From Bacteroidota bacterium (GTDB taxonomy: Bacteria > Bacteroidota > Bacteroidia > Bacteroidales > Prolixibacteraceae): a stretch of DNA of 44,338 bases. The DNA is taken from assembly GCA_030684645.1 (NCBI GenBank), contig JAUXUF010000248.1, forward strand, positions 1 to 44,338, written 5' to 3'. A program made the position numbers and the translations under genes. Below the pieces are notes generated by a model that saw only the letters and a program-made list of their open reading frames with translations, was not told the origin of the DNA and did not search any database. Each line of letters begins with the position of its first letter. Positions within the stretch are counted from its first letter, which is position 1. Below, one piece after another: positions 5,950 through 39,649 of the stretch.

Positions 5950-6012
5950 ACCACAGATTACACAGATGGACACAGATTTTAAATCTGTGATAATTTGAGT
6001 AATCTGTGTTTT
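5950..6012. repeat. CACAGATT-type dispersed inverted repeat
   Basis: Three CACAGATT-like units on the left (5952-5980) are mirrored on the right (5981-6010), with a tip formed by CACAGATTT/AAATCTGTG and an outer pairing of CACAGATTA with TAATCTGTG, then a run of T. It resembles the 'ACCACAGATTACACAGAT' intergenic repeats that occur in many bacterial genomes. A related layout is at 14181-14262. It may end transcripts or be a small non-autonomous element. Confidence 0.6.
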
Positions 6013-6074
6013 TTTTGTTTGATGCACTCAATGGTTGGCTACTACCTTAGAATAATTTCGTCTATTCCTATTGT

Positions 6075-6123
6075 TGTTGATTATTTTCAACAAAAGCAAC
6101 GAGATTGTTGAAAATAATCAACA
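6075..6123. repeat. Perfect 19-bp AT-rich inverted repeat
   Basis: The left arm 6075-6093 and right arm 6105-6123 are perfectly complementary around an 11-nt spacer. No T-run follows, so it is not a standard terminator. It lies in the 440-bp gap between ald and valS, about 130 bp before the valS -7 element. It could be an operator, a cruciform or the end of an element. Confidence 0.8.
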
Positions 6124-6253
6124 TCTCAGAGAAAAGATTATCTAAAGTGGAGGAGAAAATTGAAACAAAATCACATATATCTGGCTGGCAATAATACTTT
6201 ATGAAGTTTGAAACCTTCCAAACCATTTTATTCTGTCAACGAAGTAATTTTTC

Positions 6254-6261
6254 TATTTTTG
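6254..6261 (+). promoter_or_regulatory. -7 element for valS
   Basis: TATTTTTG, a match to TAnnTTTG, 50 nt before the valS start codon. The -33 region is poor. The rest of 6124-6253 shows nothing I can name. Confidence 0.5.
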
Positions 6262-6311
6262 CAGCTTCGTTTAAAGAGATAATCAGAAAATAGTCAATAA
6301 AATACAAGCAA

Positions 6312-9300
6312 ATGGATATCCCCAGTAAGTACAACCCAGCCGAAGTTGAAGACAAATGGTATCGGTACTGGATGGAAAATAAGTTTTTCCATTCCGAACC
6401 CGATGAACGTGAACCTTATACGATTGTCATTCCGCCGCCAAATGTCACCGGTGTGCTGCACATGGGGCACATGCTCAATAATACCATTCAGGATATCCTG
6501 ACACGCCGCGCCCGGATGCTGGGCAAAAATGCCTGCTGGGTTCCCGGAACCGACCATGCGTCGATTGCCACCGAAGCCCGCGTGGTGAACAAATTAAAAA
6601 ATGAAGGAATTTCGAAATTCGATCTGAGCCGGGAGGAATTCCTCAGCCATGCCTGGGAATGGACCCACAAACACGGTGGGATCATTCTGGAACAGTTGAA
6701 AAAACTGGGAGCTTCCTGCGACTGGGACCGCACCGCGTTTACCATGGATGAAATTCGCAGCGATTCAGTAATTAAAACCTTTGTTGATTTGCACGATAAA
6801 GGACTGATTTATCGCGGTGTCAGGATGGTAAACTGGGATCCGGCTGCCAAAACTGCTTTGTCTGATGAAGAAGTGATCTTCAAAGAAGTACAATCGAAAC
6901 TTTACTATCTGAAATACCAGATAGAAGCCCCCCTTAATCCCCCCGTAGGGGGGAAAGAAGACCCACTGTTCAAGACTGCACGGAAATCGGAATATGAATT
7001 ACTGAAAAAGAATGCAAAAGATTTGCGGCGTTTTTCAACAGAAGCAGAAAATGTTTTGTGGGAAATGCTGCGCGCGAATAAATTAGGGGAGAAATTTAGA
7101 AGGCAACATATCATTGACGATATTATTGTTGATTTTGTTTGCCTTTCAAATAATCTTGTTGTTGAAGTTGATGGAGGATATCACAACAAGCCTGAAATTC
7201 AGGAATTAGATGAAATTAAAACTGATATTTTAAATGACTTAGGCTTTAAAGTTATTCGATTTACAAACGAAGAAGTATTAGTAAACATTGATTCAGTTAT
7301 ACAATCCATCCAAAATGCGTTAAAAAGCTCCCCCTCCGGGGGAGTTGAGGGGGCTACCTATGTAACTATTGCCACCACCCGACCGGAAACCATTCTGGGC
7401 GATACGGCCGTTTGTGTCAACCCGAACGACGGGCGTTTTCACCACTTGAAAGGCAAACGCGTTCTGGTTCCGTTAATCAATCGTTCCATTCCGATTATTG
7501 AAGACGAATATGTCGATATGGAATTTGGTACCGGCTGCCTGAAAATTACCCCGGCACATGATGTGAACGACTATGAAATCGGACTTCGTTTTAATCTGCC
7601 AAGTATCGATATTTTTAATGAAGACGGCACGTTGAGCGAACAAGCCGGAATGTTTGTTGGCGAAGATCGTTTTGTGGTCCGCGAGAAAATCATGATCGAG
7701 TTGGAAGCCACTGGAAATGTGGCCAAAGTGGATGATTATACCAATAAAGTTGGCTTCTCAGAACGTACCCATGTTCCGATTGAACCCAAATTGTCGGCTC
7801 AATGGTTCCTGAAAATGGAAGGTCTGGTTAAACCTGCCATCGAAAATGTAATGAACGATACCATCCAGTTTTATCCGCCGAAATTCAAAAATACTTACCG
7901 CCACTGGATGGAAAACATCAAAGACTGGTGCATCAGCCGTCAGTTGTGGTGGGGCCACCGCATTCCGGTGTGGTATATAAGCCCCTCCCCAGCCCTCCCC
8001 GGAGGGGAGGGAGAAAACAACTACGGATTTGTGGTTGCAGAAAATGAGGAAAAAGCCCGCGAATTAGCGTTCAAAAAATTCCCCTCCCTCGGAGGGGTTA
8101 GGGGAGGCTTTTCACTTCATCAGGATGAAGATGTGCTCGATACTTGGTTTTCCAGTTGGTTATGGCCAATCTCGGTTTTCGACGGCATTTGCAAACCCGA
8201 CAACAACGAAATTAATTACTACTACCCTACTAACGACCTGGTAACTGGTCCGGATATTATTTTCTTCTGGGTGGCCCGCATGATTATTTCCGGCTATGAA
8301 TACCGCGGGCAGTTTCCGTTCAAAAACGTTTATTATACCGGAATGGTGCGCGACAAACAGCGTCGTAAAATGTCGAAATCGCTCGGAAATTCGCCCGACC
8401 CGCTCGGCCTGATTGACACTTACGGAGCCGATGGTGTGCGTGTGGGAATGTTGCTTTGCTCGCCTGCCGGCGGCGATTTAATGTTCGACGAAAGTTTACC
8501 GCAGCAGGGAGCCGGTTTTGTGACCAAAATATGGAACTCATTCCGCCTGGTGAACGGTTGGGAAGTGGATGCCAAACTTCCGCAGCCCGAACATTCGCGG
8601 CTAGCCATCAGTTGGTTCCACGAAAAATTCAGCCAGATTGTGGAGCAAACCGACGATCATTTCGACAAATTCCGCATTTCGGATGCGCTGATGAGTGTTT
8701 ACACCACGGTTCGCGACGAGTTTTCCGGATGGTTGCTCGAAATGGTGAAACCTGCCTACCAGCAGCCCATCGATGGAAAAACTTACCAGGAATTGATTGA
8801 TATTTTTGATGAAGTGCTGCGCTTCCTGCATCCGTTTATGCCTTTTGTGAGCGAAGAAATTTGGCAATTACTGAAAGAACGCCAACAAGGCGATAGTATC
8901 ACGATCAGTTCGTGGCCCAAATCAACCGGATATGACGAAACTTTAATTGCTCAGTTTGAAGATGTGAAAGAAGCCATCGCCGGCTTACGCACCATCCGTA
9001 CAAAAAATAACATTCCGAATAAAGATCAGCTCGAATTAGCCATATTGGTTGGCGACAAAGGTTTTGCTCCTGAATTCAATTCCGTTTTGGTGAAAATGGG
9101 CAACCTTTCAACTTTGAATCTGGTTTCCGAAGAAGTAAAAGCTGCAGCATCGTTTCTGGTGAAATCCACTACATTCTTTGTACCGATGGGTGGAACCATC
9201 GATGTGGAAGAAGAACTGAAAAAACTTCAGGCCGAACTCGATTACACCAAGGGCTTCCTGAATTCAGTAGTAAAAAAACTGGCCAACGAACGTTTTGTAA

Positions 9301-9401
9301 GCAGCGCTCCCGAAGCTGTTGTAGCAATCGAACGCGCCAAACAGGCCGATGCCGAAGCAAAAATAAAAGTATTGGAGGAGCAGATTGCTAACCTGATATA
9401 A
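6312..9401 (+). CDS. valS: Valyl-tRNA synthetase with an in-frame DUF559 nuclease insertion
   Basis: 1029 residues against about 870-880 for the family. It charges tRNA-Val and edits mischarged Thr. Class I signatures: HMGH (50-53) and KMSKS (686-690). The CP1 editing domain carries ATTRPET just after residue 350, and the C-terminal coiled-coil arm (about 950-1029) is present. The excess length has three sources. Residues 206-347 are a DUF559 nuclease domain bounded by translated repeats (PLNPPVGG and SSPSGGVEG), placed in the loop before ATTRPET. Two further translated repeats, [12 protein letters not shown] (about 557-568) and [10 protein letters not shown] (about 591-600), flank native-looking ValRS sequence. 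No other full valS is visible and all core motifs are intact, so the protein is probably functional with the insertions in place. The final 240 bp reappear at 12393-12632. Confidence 0.95.
6927..7352 (+). mobile_element. DUF559 endonuclease insertion bounded by convergent C-rich palindromes
   Basis: About 426 bp (142 codons) without a stop, interrupting the ValRS editing domain between Glu 205 and Thr 349. The core (about 230-337) is a DUF559 domain, a Vsr/PD-(D/E)xK-like nuclease: [28 protein letters not shown], a His at 291 and [12 protein letters not shown]. The likely catalytic or structural residues Glu 246, Asp 274, Glu 285, Asp 287 and His 291 are all present, so it looks active. The two ends are the same palindromic repeat in opposite orientations (6928-6956 and 7326-7353), which could pair with each other in DNA or mRNA. 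No obvious internal start codon precedes the domain, so it is made as part of ValRS unless processed. Mobility is inferred from the placement and repeats. Confidence 0.75.
6928..6956 (+). repeat. C-rich palindromic repeat, copy R1
   Basis: CCCCCC-TTAAT then a hairpin of six C (6939-6944), GTA and six G (6948-6953), then AAA. In frame it encodes PLNPPVGGK. It is the left boundary of the DUF559 insertion. Confidence 0.85.
7326..7353 (-). repeat. C-rich palindromic repeat, copy R2
   Basis: Inverted relative to R1: hairpin CTCCCCC (7328-7334), TCC, GGGGGAG (7338-7344), then TTGAGGGGG. Its reverse complement lines up with R1 (CCCCCT, A-rich spacer, C-run hairpin). It is the right boundary of the DUF559 insertion. 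Confidence 0.85.
7979..8016 (+). repeat. C-rich palindromic repeat, copy R3, in valS
   Basis: AAGCCCCTCCCCAG followed by hairpin CCCTCCCC (7993-8000), GGA, GGGGAGGG (8004-8011). Translated in frame as [12 protein letters not shown], not expected in ValRS. Confidence 0.85.
8079..8112 (-). repeat. C-rich palindromic repeat, copy R4, in valS
   Basis: Hairpin CCCCTCC (8081-8087), CTC, GGAGGGG (8091-8097), then TTAGGGGAGGCTTTT. It is the inverted partner of R3, 62 bp away, and is translated in frame as [11 protein letters not shown]. Confidence 0.85.
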
Positions 9402-9407
9402 AACCAA

Positions 9408-9437
9408 GTGATTGGATGACTTAAGCCATCCAATCAC
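9408..9437. terminator. Hairpin between valS and the convergent gene
   Basis: A perfect 11-bp stem, GTGATTGGATG (9408-9418) with CATCCAATCAC (9427-9437), loop of 8 nt, six bases after the valS stop. It probably acts as a bidirectional terminator. Confidence 0.7.
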
Positions 9438-9455
9438 TCCTTCAAAAAAAATTAA

Positions 9456-10106
9456 CTATTTAAAGGTATAACCTAACCCCAAGGAAACTCCTGGCATAAT
9501 TACAGACATTTGGTTTCCCCCAGTAAAAATCAATTTAGCTGAAGGTTGTAAATATACTCTGCCAAGCTTACAGATAAGAGATCCCTGTAAAATGTTTGCT
9601 AATGATCCGCTCGAGACATTATTTTCAATTGAATTGGAATCCAGAGGATTATCAGAGAATCTAATGATGGTTCTTGACAAGTTAAAATATCCAACGGCCA
9701 TTTTTATTGAAAACCCAATAACTTTATATTGAGGGGAAAATTCAGCTCCAATAAAAGCACCACCACCAGTCAACTGATTTTCGTGTATGGATTTATATGA
9801 AATATTAGCCTCAACATTGTTATCAAACCTAAAAAAAGTAGTTCCTGCCAGATAATTAATATTCTTTAACTTCGAGGGTTTTGACAATTCTATTGTGAAC
9901 CCTGGAATCATGTCATTATTTCCAGGATAATAATCCTTACCTGTATCTAGGTATCTCTCCCATTGCATCCAAAGATCCGAGTAAAGATCCGAGCTAATTT
10001 GAAACTTGATTGTGTTCTCTAGCTTTTCAGTTGTGATGTCCTGAGAAAACGACAAAGTGGCAAGTGCTAATAAAACACTGAATATGGCTAATCTTTTCAT
10101 TTTCAT
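9456..10106 (-). CDS. Secreted, barrel-like outer-membrane protein of unknown family
   Basis: 216 residues with a signal peptide (cleavage near SFSQ). The mature part alternates polar and aromatic residues in short strands and ends in 'GVSLGLGYTFK', as outer-membrane barrels do; the predicted size would suit an 8-10-strand barrel. I do not recognise the family. It is AT-richer than the neighbours and lies in the 3-kb block between two copies of the valS 3' end, together with the lipoprotein upstream of it on the same strand (184-bp gap). The block therefore looks like acquired DNA. Confidence 0.65.
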   Translation of the reverse strand: MKMKRLAIFSVLLALATLSFSQDITTEKLENTIKFQISSDLYSDLWMQWERYLDTGKDYYPGNNDMIPGFTIELSKPSKLKNINYLAGTTFFRFDNNVEANISYKSIHENQLTGGGAFIGAEFSPQYKVIGFSIKMAVGYFNLSRTIIRFSDNPLDSNSIENNVSSGSLANILQGSLICKLGRVYLQPSAKLIFTGGNQMSVIMPGVSLGLGYTFK

Positions 10107-20416: not shown

Positions 20417-20445
20417 GCCCCCTAATCCCCCAAACGGGGGACTTT
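20417..20445 (+). repeat. C-rich palindromic repeat, copy R6
   Basis: CCCCC-TAAT then hairpin CCCCC (20427-20431), AAAC, GGGGG (20436-20440), ACTTTGC. Closest in sequence to R1. Confidence 0.8.
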
Positions 20446-20510
20446 GCATCCTTCAAAGTCTGAACGCATGCTCTTTAAAGCACGTCTTTTCAGAATTTCC
20501 AATGCCTGAG

Positions 20511-20550
20511 CTCCCTTCCATTTATTGGGGAAGGGTTGGGGATGGGGCAG
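20511..20550 (-). repeat. C-rich palindromic repeat, copy R7
   Basis: Inverted partner of R6, 65 bp away: CTCCCTTCC, loop, GGAAGGG, TTGGGGATGGGGCAG. Confidence 0.75.
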
Positions 20551-39494: not shown

Positions 39495-39530
39495 AGAGCC
39501 TCCCCAACCCCTCCACAAGAGGGGGCTTTG
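39495..39530 (+). repeat. C-rich palindromic repeat, copy R10
   Basis: AGAGCCTCCCCAA then hairpin CCCCTC (39508-39513), CACAA, GAGGGG (39519-39524), GCTTTG. It immediately follows the ppa stop. Confidence 0.85.
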
Positions 39531-39613
39531 ATATCCGCTGTTCGTTAATTTCTCTCTTTTATCATTTGATTTGCCAAGATTTTCGGGCAATCTCCAATTT
39601 TTGACAACTCAAA

Positions 39614-39649
39614 GGCTTTCCCCCTGTGGGGGAACGGGAAGGGGGCTTC
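39614..39649 (-). repeat. C-rich palindromic repeat, copy R11
   Basis: Hairpin TTCCCCC (39618-39624), TGT, GGGGGAA (39628-39634), then CGGGAAGGGGGCTTC. Inverted partner of R10, about 83 bp away. It abuts and touches the folA stop codon. Confidence 0.85.

Follow-up and report, generated by a model that had tools for sequence, protein, structure and literature searches.

The DUF559 domain has been connected with Vsr-type nucleases and homing endonucleases: a profile of the Escherichia coli protein YcjD detects Vsr (PMC1189080), and in a section on inteins a DUF559 gene has been called a member of the EDxHD homing family (PMC9403480; here and below, articles are cited for excerpts). Judged by their titles and the beginnings of their abstracts, none of the papers naming DUF559 in one open-access library deals with flanking palindromes or in-frame insertion, and one concerns CRISPR; the palindromic repeat described in the excerpt of PMC2996958 is a different one. 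Here, we analyzed a 44,338-nucleotide stretch of DNA from a Bacteroidota bacterium of the family Prolixibacteraceae (assembly GCA_030684645.1, contig JAUXUF010000248.1, positions 1 to 44,338; hereafter the window), in which a DUF559 nuclease lies in frame within valS, the gene for valyl-tRNA synthetase (ValRS). Many genes are occupied in frame by inserts of this kind, at sites that recur, and in relatives such sites can be empty or hold palindromes only. The insert probably represents a palindrome-bordered, homing-type mobile nuclease cassette of essential genes, which is not spliced and is tolerated as a surface domain.

The nuclease insert in valS

A previous inspection of the letters alone (the sequence-only reading) had placed a DUF559 domain in frame between Glu205 and Thr349 of ValRS without any stop codon. 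The analysis bore this out: valS including the insert is a single open frame (Table 1), and a Pfam scan assigned ValRS residues 231-337 to DUF559 (E 2e-34; 118.2 bits against a cut-off of 20.6), with tRNA-synt_1 and other ValRS domains found around it and the ValRS otherwise normal. With the curated cut-off passed and the active-site residues conserved, the domain belongs to DUF559 (PF04480). The in-frame insertion had thus been read correctly and its length one codon too short, as 143 codons (6927-7355) rather than 142 separate the two residues; alignment to an unoccupied ValRS gave a net gain of 139 residues over the empty site. DUF559 covers 107 of the approximately 140 codons, and the sole other Pfam match in the insert is an overlapping nuclease model, MTES_1575. 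The ValRS of T. thermophilus (1gax) aligns to residues 1-206 and 345-1013 of the query, and the insertion point corresponds to chain residues 204-206 of 1gax, directly ahead of the ATTRPET motif, which we take to be the start of the ValRS editing domain. A structure prediction of the whole ValRS reached a mean pLDDT of 50 and was not used.

Each border of the insert is a palindrome composed of a C- or G-rich outer box and a hairpin, and is translated in frame, as had been stated before, into a Pro/Gly-rich peptide. The borders had also been described as copies of one C-rich palindrome in convergent orientation; they are indeed mutually inverted, but represent variants and not identical copies. 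No target-site duplication was seen at the valS site, where approximately 12-15 nt of host sequence are gone in the occupied state; the unoccupied site reads ATAGAAGG...GAATTTGTAACC. The motif scans agree with the earlier statement that the insert contains neither intein, intron nor transposase: Pfam found no intein/Hint-type splicing domain in the whole ValRS and insert and no transposase in the insert, and Rfam gave no match, to intron RNA or otherwise, up to E 0.1 in positions 6000-9800.

The five residues E30, D58, E69, D71 and H75 are all retained in 141 of 144 embedded DUF559 copies. In a Foldseek search, the model of the domain (mean pLDDT 83) matched the endonuclease-like protein 3hrl (E 1.2e-7), the catalytic domain of I-Bth0305I (3r3p; E 5.5e-5, TM 0.79 on the target) and, more weakly, E. 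coli Vsr (1vsr; E 0.12). Profile matches by hmmsearch were likewise obtained for 3hrl (E 2e-27) and 3r3p (E 4.5e-7). The insert therefore agrees with the EDxHD family in the fold and homology of its catalytic domain and departs from it in having no extra DNA-binding regions.

Table 1. Coordinates of valS, its insert and further palindromes in the valS frame (window positions).
Feature	Position	Strand	Description
valS, valyl-tRNA synthetase	6312..9401	+	single open frame, 1029 amino acids, insert included
Left palindrome	6926..6954	+	outer box AGCCCCCC and hairpin (6938-6954); in-frame peptide APLNPPVGG
DUF559 nuclease domain (PF04480)	7002..7322	+	Pfam; conserved active-site residues present
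Right palindrome, inverted	7328..7355	-	hairpin (7328-7344) and outer box GAGGGGGCT; in-frame peptide SPSGGVEGA
Nuclease-free palindrome in valS frame	7980..8013	+	second palindrome site, reference position 418
Nuclease-free palindrome in valS frame	8081..8110	-	inverted relative to the palindrome at 7980..8013

The second palindrome site of ValRS (reference position 418/420) encodes palindrome peptides in several relatives too, and among the aligned ValRS sequences it was never found to hold a nuclease. Approximately 190 bp upstream of valS, we also observed an A+T-rich inverted repeat (6075-6123), whose 19-bp arms match perfectly around a loop of 11 nt.

Occupied and empty sites and the history of the inserts

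The insert in valS is one of a widespread class, and the search for further copies proposed by the sequence-only reading yielded a second one in ileS as well as many other hosts. A PF04480 profile search of the window's own assembly gave four matches above the cut-off. Besides valS, these comprise the copy in ileS (in frame within a 1288-aa frame, with similar inverted palindromes at its borders), a free-standing gene in a polysaccharide-like locus, flanked 3' by palindromes, and a weak match, whose 171-aa frame reads, to our eyes, like Vsr. The gene preceding the free-standing copy (L003/L006, G000:C84) harbors in-frame degenerate repeats (RPHEDTPSSPHPLTPSSHRPP), another insertion of repeats into a coding sequence.

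Within the same taxonomic family, DUF559 is present in 98 of 140 genomes, with per-genome counts summing to 252 matches. At least 40 of the matches listed lie in frames above 300 amino acids (38 read as larger stretches, the window valS and the own ileS contig); two further fetched regions contained free-standing DUF559 genes. Among these 40, the identical ValRS site is occupied in 16 relatives and the window (in one case truncated at a contig end), and the identical IleRS site in 15 genomes including the own one. Five of the remaining eight hosts were identified by Pfam as type ISP, HsdM, Eco57I-type, HisD and TrpF proteins, and the other three are presumably HisD-, HsdR- and ISP-like, as judged by similarity or motif. 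Short loci duplicating larger stretches were left out (15 in this host-site census; 16 of the family set in the reading of the G036 frame given next, in the hairpin test and in both trees). An extra ValRS insert is located in a broken frame of G036, a single-contig genome, in which the occupied valS (L017, G036:C1:1159350-1161731) falls into three frames (159, 233 and 469 amino acids); base-call errors in C-runs and real decay are both possible causes.

DUF559 was further present in 222 of 395 genomes drawn from Bacteroidota, and at least 48 of the matches listed outside the own genome lie in frames above 300 amino acids (29 loci and 40 fetched regions examined). Based on conserved motifs, the hosts include MetH, LeuRS (two sites), RecG, HsdR and HsdM, and the end fusions include HisF and RNase H. 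The hosts identified by Pfam (13 proteins) include type ISP, HsdR and Eco57I-, MmeI- and N6_N4-type methylases, as well as methylmalonyl-CoA mutase, a UvrD helicase and a peptidase-M23 protein, with end fusions to coproporphyrinogen oxidase, N-formylglutamate amidohydrolase and a GATase_5 (PurL-like) protein. In a scan of named genomes restricted to the best 80 of 582 relatives, which is biased toward embedded copies by its query, an alignment of such copies, the domain was refound in 79 of 80, 61 of them in frames >260 amino acids. Copies in RecG occur in the isolates Tenacibaculum gallaicum DSM 18841, Maribacter luteus, Flavobacterium difficile and Tamlana nanhaiensis, and cultured carriers elsewhere are Gillisia mitskevichiae (LeuRS) and Dysgonomonas sp. 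PF1-14 (ValRS); embedded copies are thus not an artefact of metagenome assembly.

Empty sites, which the sequence-only reading had recommended looking for, are common. Reading 30 ValRS loci directly, we found 18 clean, 8 occupied and 4 with palindromes only, and 30 IleRS loci comprised 5 occupied and 25 empty sites. In the own genus, valS carries the insert in 8 of the 21 genomes having a valS match, and across the family most ValRS and IleRS frames have the shorter length expected of an unoccupied gene. Among the palindrome-only sites, G004 and G006 retain the right palindrome only (30 nt, with the same letters as in the window) and G054 the left one only, whereas in G071 both are present and add 24 residues, but the nuclease is absent. 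The form seen in G004 and G006 would be the expected remnant if the sequence between two copies of AAGCYCCCC, one in the left box and one in the right hairpin arm, were deleted; the insertion of a lone palindrome could be another origin.

A tree of 194 DUF559 domains showed 38 changes of host label, compared with a minimum of 11 and a shuffled mean of 125.3. It was calculated after removal of duplicate short loci (16 family, 6 phylum) and of 7 named loci taken to be from the same genomes as family members; L017 was labeled ValRS by hand, as were L057 and L242 if no motif matched. One group unites 22 ValRS copies (support 89; 98 for an inner 15-row group), and all 8 MetH copies group with two others (support 94); the RecG copies form one group with a support of only 66. 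In a smaller, careful tree, five own-genus inserts group together inside the large ValRS clade (support 83/80), and the own ileS copy took no resolved position. Other lineages have entered the ValRS site as well (G005, G016 and G021, with L251 near), and the IleRS site was entered separately by the own copy together with G017, by L246/L266, and by L248, L281 and L297. The way in which lineage follows site is that of inteins and homing endonucleases, but shared descent contributes to it as well.

In several cases, the inserts have a history separate from that of their host genes. The sister species G020 and G021 share 96% identity in ValRS and 53% in the inserts; for G000/G002 the respective values are 91% (IleRS) and 62%, and G121 and G132, which belong to different genera, show 75% in ValRS and 85% in the inserts. 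Inserts are more similar than hosts in 31/120 ValRS pairs and 8/105 IleRS pairs, and the rank correlation between host and insert amounts to 0.24 (ValRS) and 0.48 (IleRS), compared with 0.64 and 0.69 between both host flanks. Synonymous sites corrected for codon use gave the same picture for these and similar pairs, with values of 0.50 for the insert versus 0.05 for the host in G016/G021, 0.50 versus 0.14 in G121/G132, and 0.07 versus 0.62 in G020/G021. Hence, what is expected of a homing element was found, namely occupied and empty alleles in relatives and an insert history unlike that of the host, the latter at synonymous sites in a minority of pairs. A signal from uncorrected third positions was set aside, because it largely reflects codon composition and few pairs were left after correction: the insert was ahead in identity by at least 8 points in 39/120 ValRS (10 opposite), 13/105 IleRS (14 opposite) and 44/153 RecG pairs (2 opposite).

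Border palindromes, proposed mechanism and rival explanations

In the family set, 29 of 39 embedded copies have hairpins (arm of at least 6, GC content of 70% or more) within 180 nt both before and after the domain, versus 0 of 255 control open reading frames, all from one relative (G001). In the phylum set, this applied to 20/48 embedded and 9/14 free-standing copies. Random positions in the same loci as the copies gave 18/610, some true ones included. Copies with <100 nt of flank were left out, as were duplicate short loci (16 in the family set, 6 in the phylum set); in the 40th embedded family copy, the contig ends in the flank. The sequence-only reading had asked whether DUF559 genes are regularly bordered by this repeat; palindromes border the copies at a frequency far above that of control frames, but not every copy has them. 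The longest exact inverted flank match was also tried and rejected, since it separated more weakly than the hairpin test (≥10 nt in 14/39 embedded copies versus 29/255 controls). Counting oriented palindromes gave 11 in a 400-kb sample of G001 versus 1 after shuffling, and 9 in the 44-kb window. Two intergenic inverted pairs of C-rich palindromes in the window (20426-20535 and 39508-39634; starts 87 and 110 bp apart) are free of a nuclease and look like miniature versions of the element.

Outside the phylum, five of 38 records from a plasmid collection were viewed as examples rather than counted. The scripted search placed hairpins both upstream and downstream in Deinococcus sp. NW-56, only downstream in Synechocystis sp. 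B12, only upstream in Azospirillum, and none in the Sinorhizobium and E. coli records. By eye, C-rich palindromes that are imperfect or longer could also be recognized on the upstream side in Synechocystis and on the downstream side in Sinorhizobium and E. coli. That DUF559 has C-rich palindromes next to it in Cyanobacteriota and Deinococcota is a hint that such elements reach beyond one phylum. On the Synechocystis sp. B12 plasmid (L316), the palindrome-flanked DUF559 gene directly follows a short DUF1156 gene, as if splitting a longer gene.

A second nuclease family, GIY-YIG, was searched in 60 genomes of the family and gave 91 matches (E up to 1e-14), of which 2 lie in frames above 300 amino acids; additional frames of ~600 amino acids at a looser limit, one per genome, were taken to be UvrC. 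Both-side hairpins (arm at least 7) accompany 5/28 GIY-YIG genes versus 1/253 controls, with 2 of 30 loci left out at contig ends. At one locus (L326:2462-6076, G132:C79), the linker of HsdR that joins HSDR_N to the SWI2/SNF2 domain carries GIY-YIG in frame, and the same linker holds DUF559 in L156, so that two unrelated nuclease families share that place. At another (L327:2391-4199, G043:C6), GIY-YIG precedes 6-phosphogluconate dehydrogenase as an in-frame N-terminal fusion; here, the borders are ATTCC-type inverted palindromes, a different palindrome family.

According to the mechanism that we propose, the ribosome would read straight through a cassette ordered as left palindrome, DUF559 nuclease and inverted right palindrome. 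DUF559 would cut the unoccupied allele (or a palindrome), and repair of the break from an occupied copy would then copy the cassette, as in inteins and intron-encoded homing endonucleases but without splicing. The palindromes would provide Pro/Gly-rich linkers, from which the nuclease would hang at a surface loop of a working enzyme, and a loss by deletion between the repeats would leave an in-frame palindrome behind. More tentatively, there may be a general class of unspliced homing elements, in which single-domain nucleases (DUF559, sometimes GIY-YIG) with inverted palindromes populate essential and defence genes in frame, each lineage being adapted to its site; the palindromes would serve as DNA ends and as linker peptides, and the many solo C-rich palindromes of these genomes would be footprints.

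Several points weigh against mobility by homing. Homing by the nuclease is what we infer, with cleavage, target site and transfer all putative, and the insert is without the extra DNA-binding regions used by known EDxHD homing enzymes (excerpt of PMC3943268). The host-insert correlations of identity given above for IleRS (0.48) and ValRS (0.24) are what partly vertical descent predicts, and host and insert identities also correlate across RecG pairs (rho 0.62), so that inheritance may in part be vertical. At synonymous sites, insert and host have separate 95% intervals in just 8/120 ValRS pairs (5 insert above host, 3 below), 3/105 IleRS pairs (all insert below host), 5/153 RecG pairs (2 above, 3 below) and 0/28 MetH pairs; most pairs are uninformative here, and the pairs are not independent. 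In addition, many branches of the large tree are weakly supported, both-side palindromes border only 5/19 free-standing family copies at the threshold used, and the recurrent sites could partly mirror which loops tolerate ~140 residues. Overall, the selfish, homing-like interpretation offered by the sequence-only reading stands on the recurrent and empty sites, the kinship to I-Bth0305I and the differing histories, the last of these in several cases only.

The rival that survives best, although we regard it as unlikely, assumes that the palindromes are REP-like and moved in trans, e.g. by a Y1/RAYT transposase, with DUF559 as a passenger and tolerance alone selecting the loops. It can draw on the nuclease-free palindromes in valS and in intergenic inverted pairs, on REPs known from within genes (PMC3733652), and on 11 Y1_Tnp matches in the own genome, two of which (L081, L083) are near other C-rich hairpins. 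However, no hairpin near these Y1_Tnp genes has the outer box of the DUF559 palindromes: 7 of the 11 loci are without such a hairpin, and the hairpins at the other 4 differ in type, being C-rich in two cases. None of the 11 matches is in a frame above 193 amino acids. The near-complete retention of the five catalytic residues (141/144 embedded copies) speaks against a passenger, and random transposition is unlikely because DUF559 lineages cluster by site.

We give still less credence to a recruitment of DUF559 by the host as a useful nuclease for repair or defence, parked in well-expressed genes. In its favor, DUF559 proteins resemble Vsr, the domain is present in VsrA of Caulobacter and a DNA damage response depends on it (PMC12907096), and many hosts are restriction-modification genes. 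The patchy occurrence in the own genus (8/21 valS), the unrelated inserts at one site in sister species and the palindrome-only sites nevertheless fit a selfish element better.

That the insert is spliced out of the RNA or the protein before the enzyme works, with the paired ends as a guide, is very improbable. The complementarity of the insert ends in mRNA, pointed out by the sequence-only reading, is reflected in a long predicted RNA duplex (-48.5 kcal/mol; separate hairpins -14.2 and -19.1), but any inverted repeat would pair in this way. Removal at either level, which the same reading had raised, received no positive evidence: the protein has no intein domain, and positions 6000-9800 no Rfam match. 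The embedded copies had been chosen as open frames, so their openness is no test, and RNA-level splicing would not need it. Finally, an old, vertically inherited ValRS domain or an assembly artefact is barely conceivable: the five own-genus inserts do group together within the large ValRS clade, but 18/30 ValRS and 25/30 IleRS sites are empty, sister-species inserts are unrelated (together contradicting the strictly vertical descent that would have overturned the earlier interpretation), and embedded copies come from many independent assemblies and cultured isolates.

Significance and comparison with known systems

The genes concerned include those of the essential enzymes ValRS, IleRS and LeuRS and of other core enzymes, MetH and RecG, which are occupied repeatedly and phylum-wide. 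If confirmed, a palindrome-bordered homing cassette would represent an unspliced route for selfish nucleases to live in essential genes and a source for a class of genomic palindromes, and it would reveal natural insertion sites tolerating ~140 residues in essential enzymes. For a widespread domain whose function is unknown, that of E. coli YcjD included, it would also suggest a role. The E. coli K-12 gene ycjD, present in 3365 of 5426 complete genomes, would offer an easy laboratory model for a DUF559 protein; as a clean empty-site case it was rejected, given that two ycjD-less strains have other genes (efflux) after sapF.

Rickettsia palindromic elements are alike in that palindromes are translated in frame within protein genes. 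They are not known to carry a nuclease, whereas the palindromes described here border one.

With REP/RAYT systems, the cassette shares inverted palindromes around the gene of a small DNA enzyme, solo palindromes elsewhere and, as for REPs in PMC3733652, a location inside genes. The enzyme is a Y1 transposase in those systems and a PD-(D/E)XK-type nuclease here, and our palindromes do not start with the GTAG or CGTC tags of the REPs in the excerpt of PMC3733652. A Y1 transposase linked to the same palindrome was not seen in the own genome, where RAYT genes were found with other palindromes or with none.

Inteins differ from the DUF559 insert, which has no splicing domain, ends in DNA palindromes and appears to leave its nuclease in the enzyme. 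They are alike in the in-frame nuclease in conserved essential genes, the recurrent sites and the patchiness (for inteins, in part PMC3943268).

The chain of I-Bth0305I, an EDxHD enzyme of the Vsr type, is named 'mobile intron protein' in the PDB, whereas the DUF559 insert has no intron. Long DNA-binding extensions are described for I-Bth0305I (excerpt of PMC3943268), and the insert consists almost only of the catalytic domain. Both are alike in catalytic fold and sequence kinship, in residing in conserved genes at fixed sites, and in the empty alleles of relatives.

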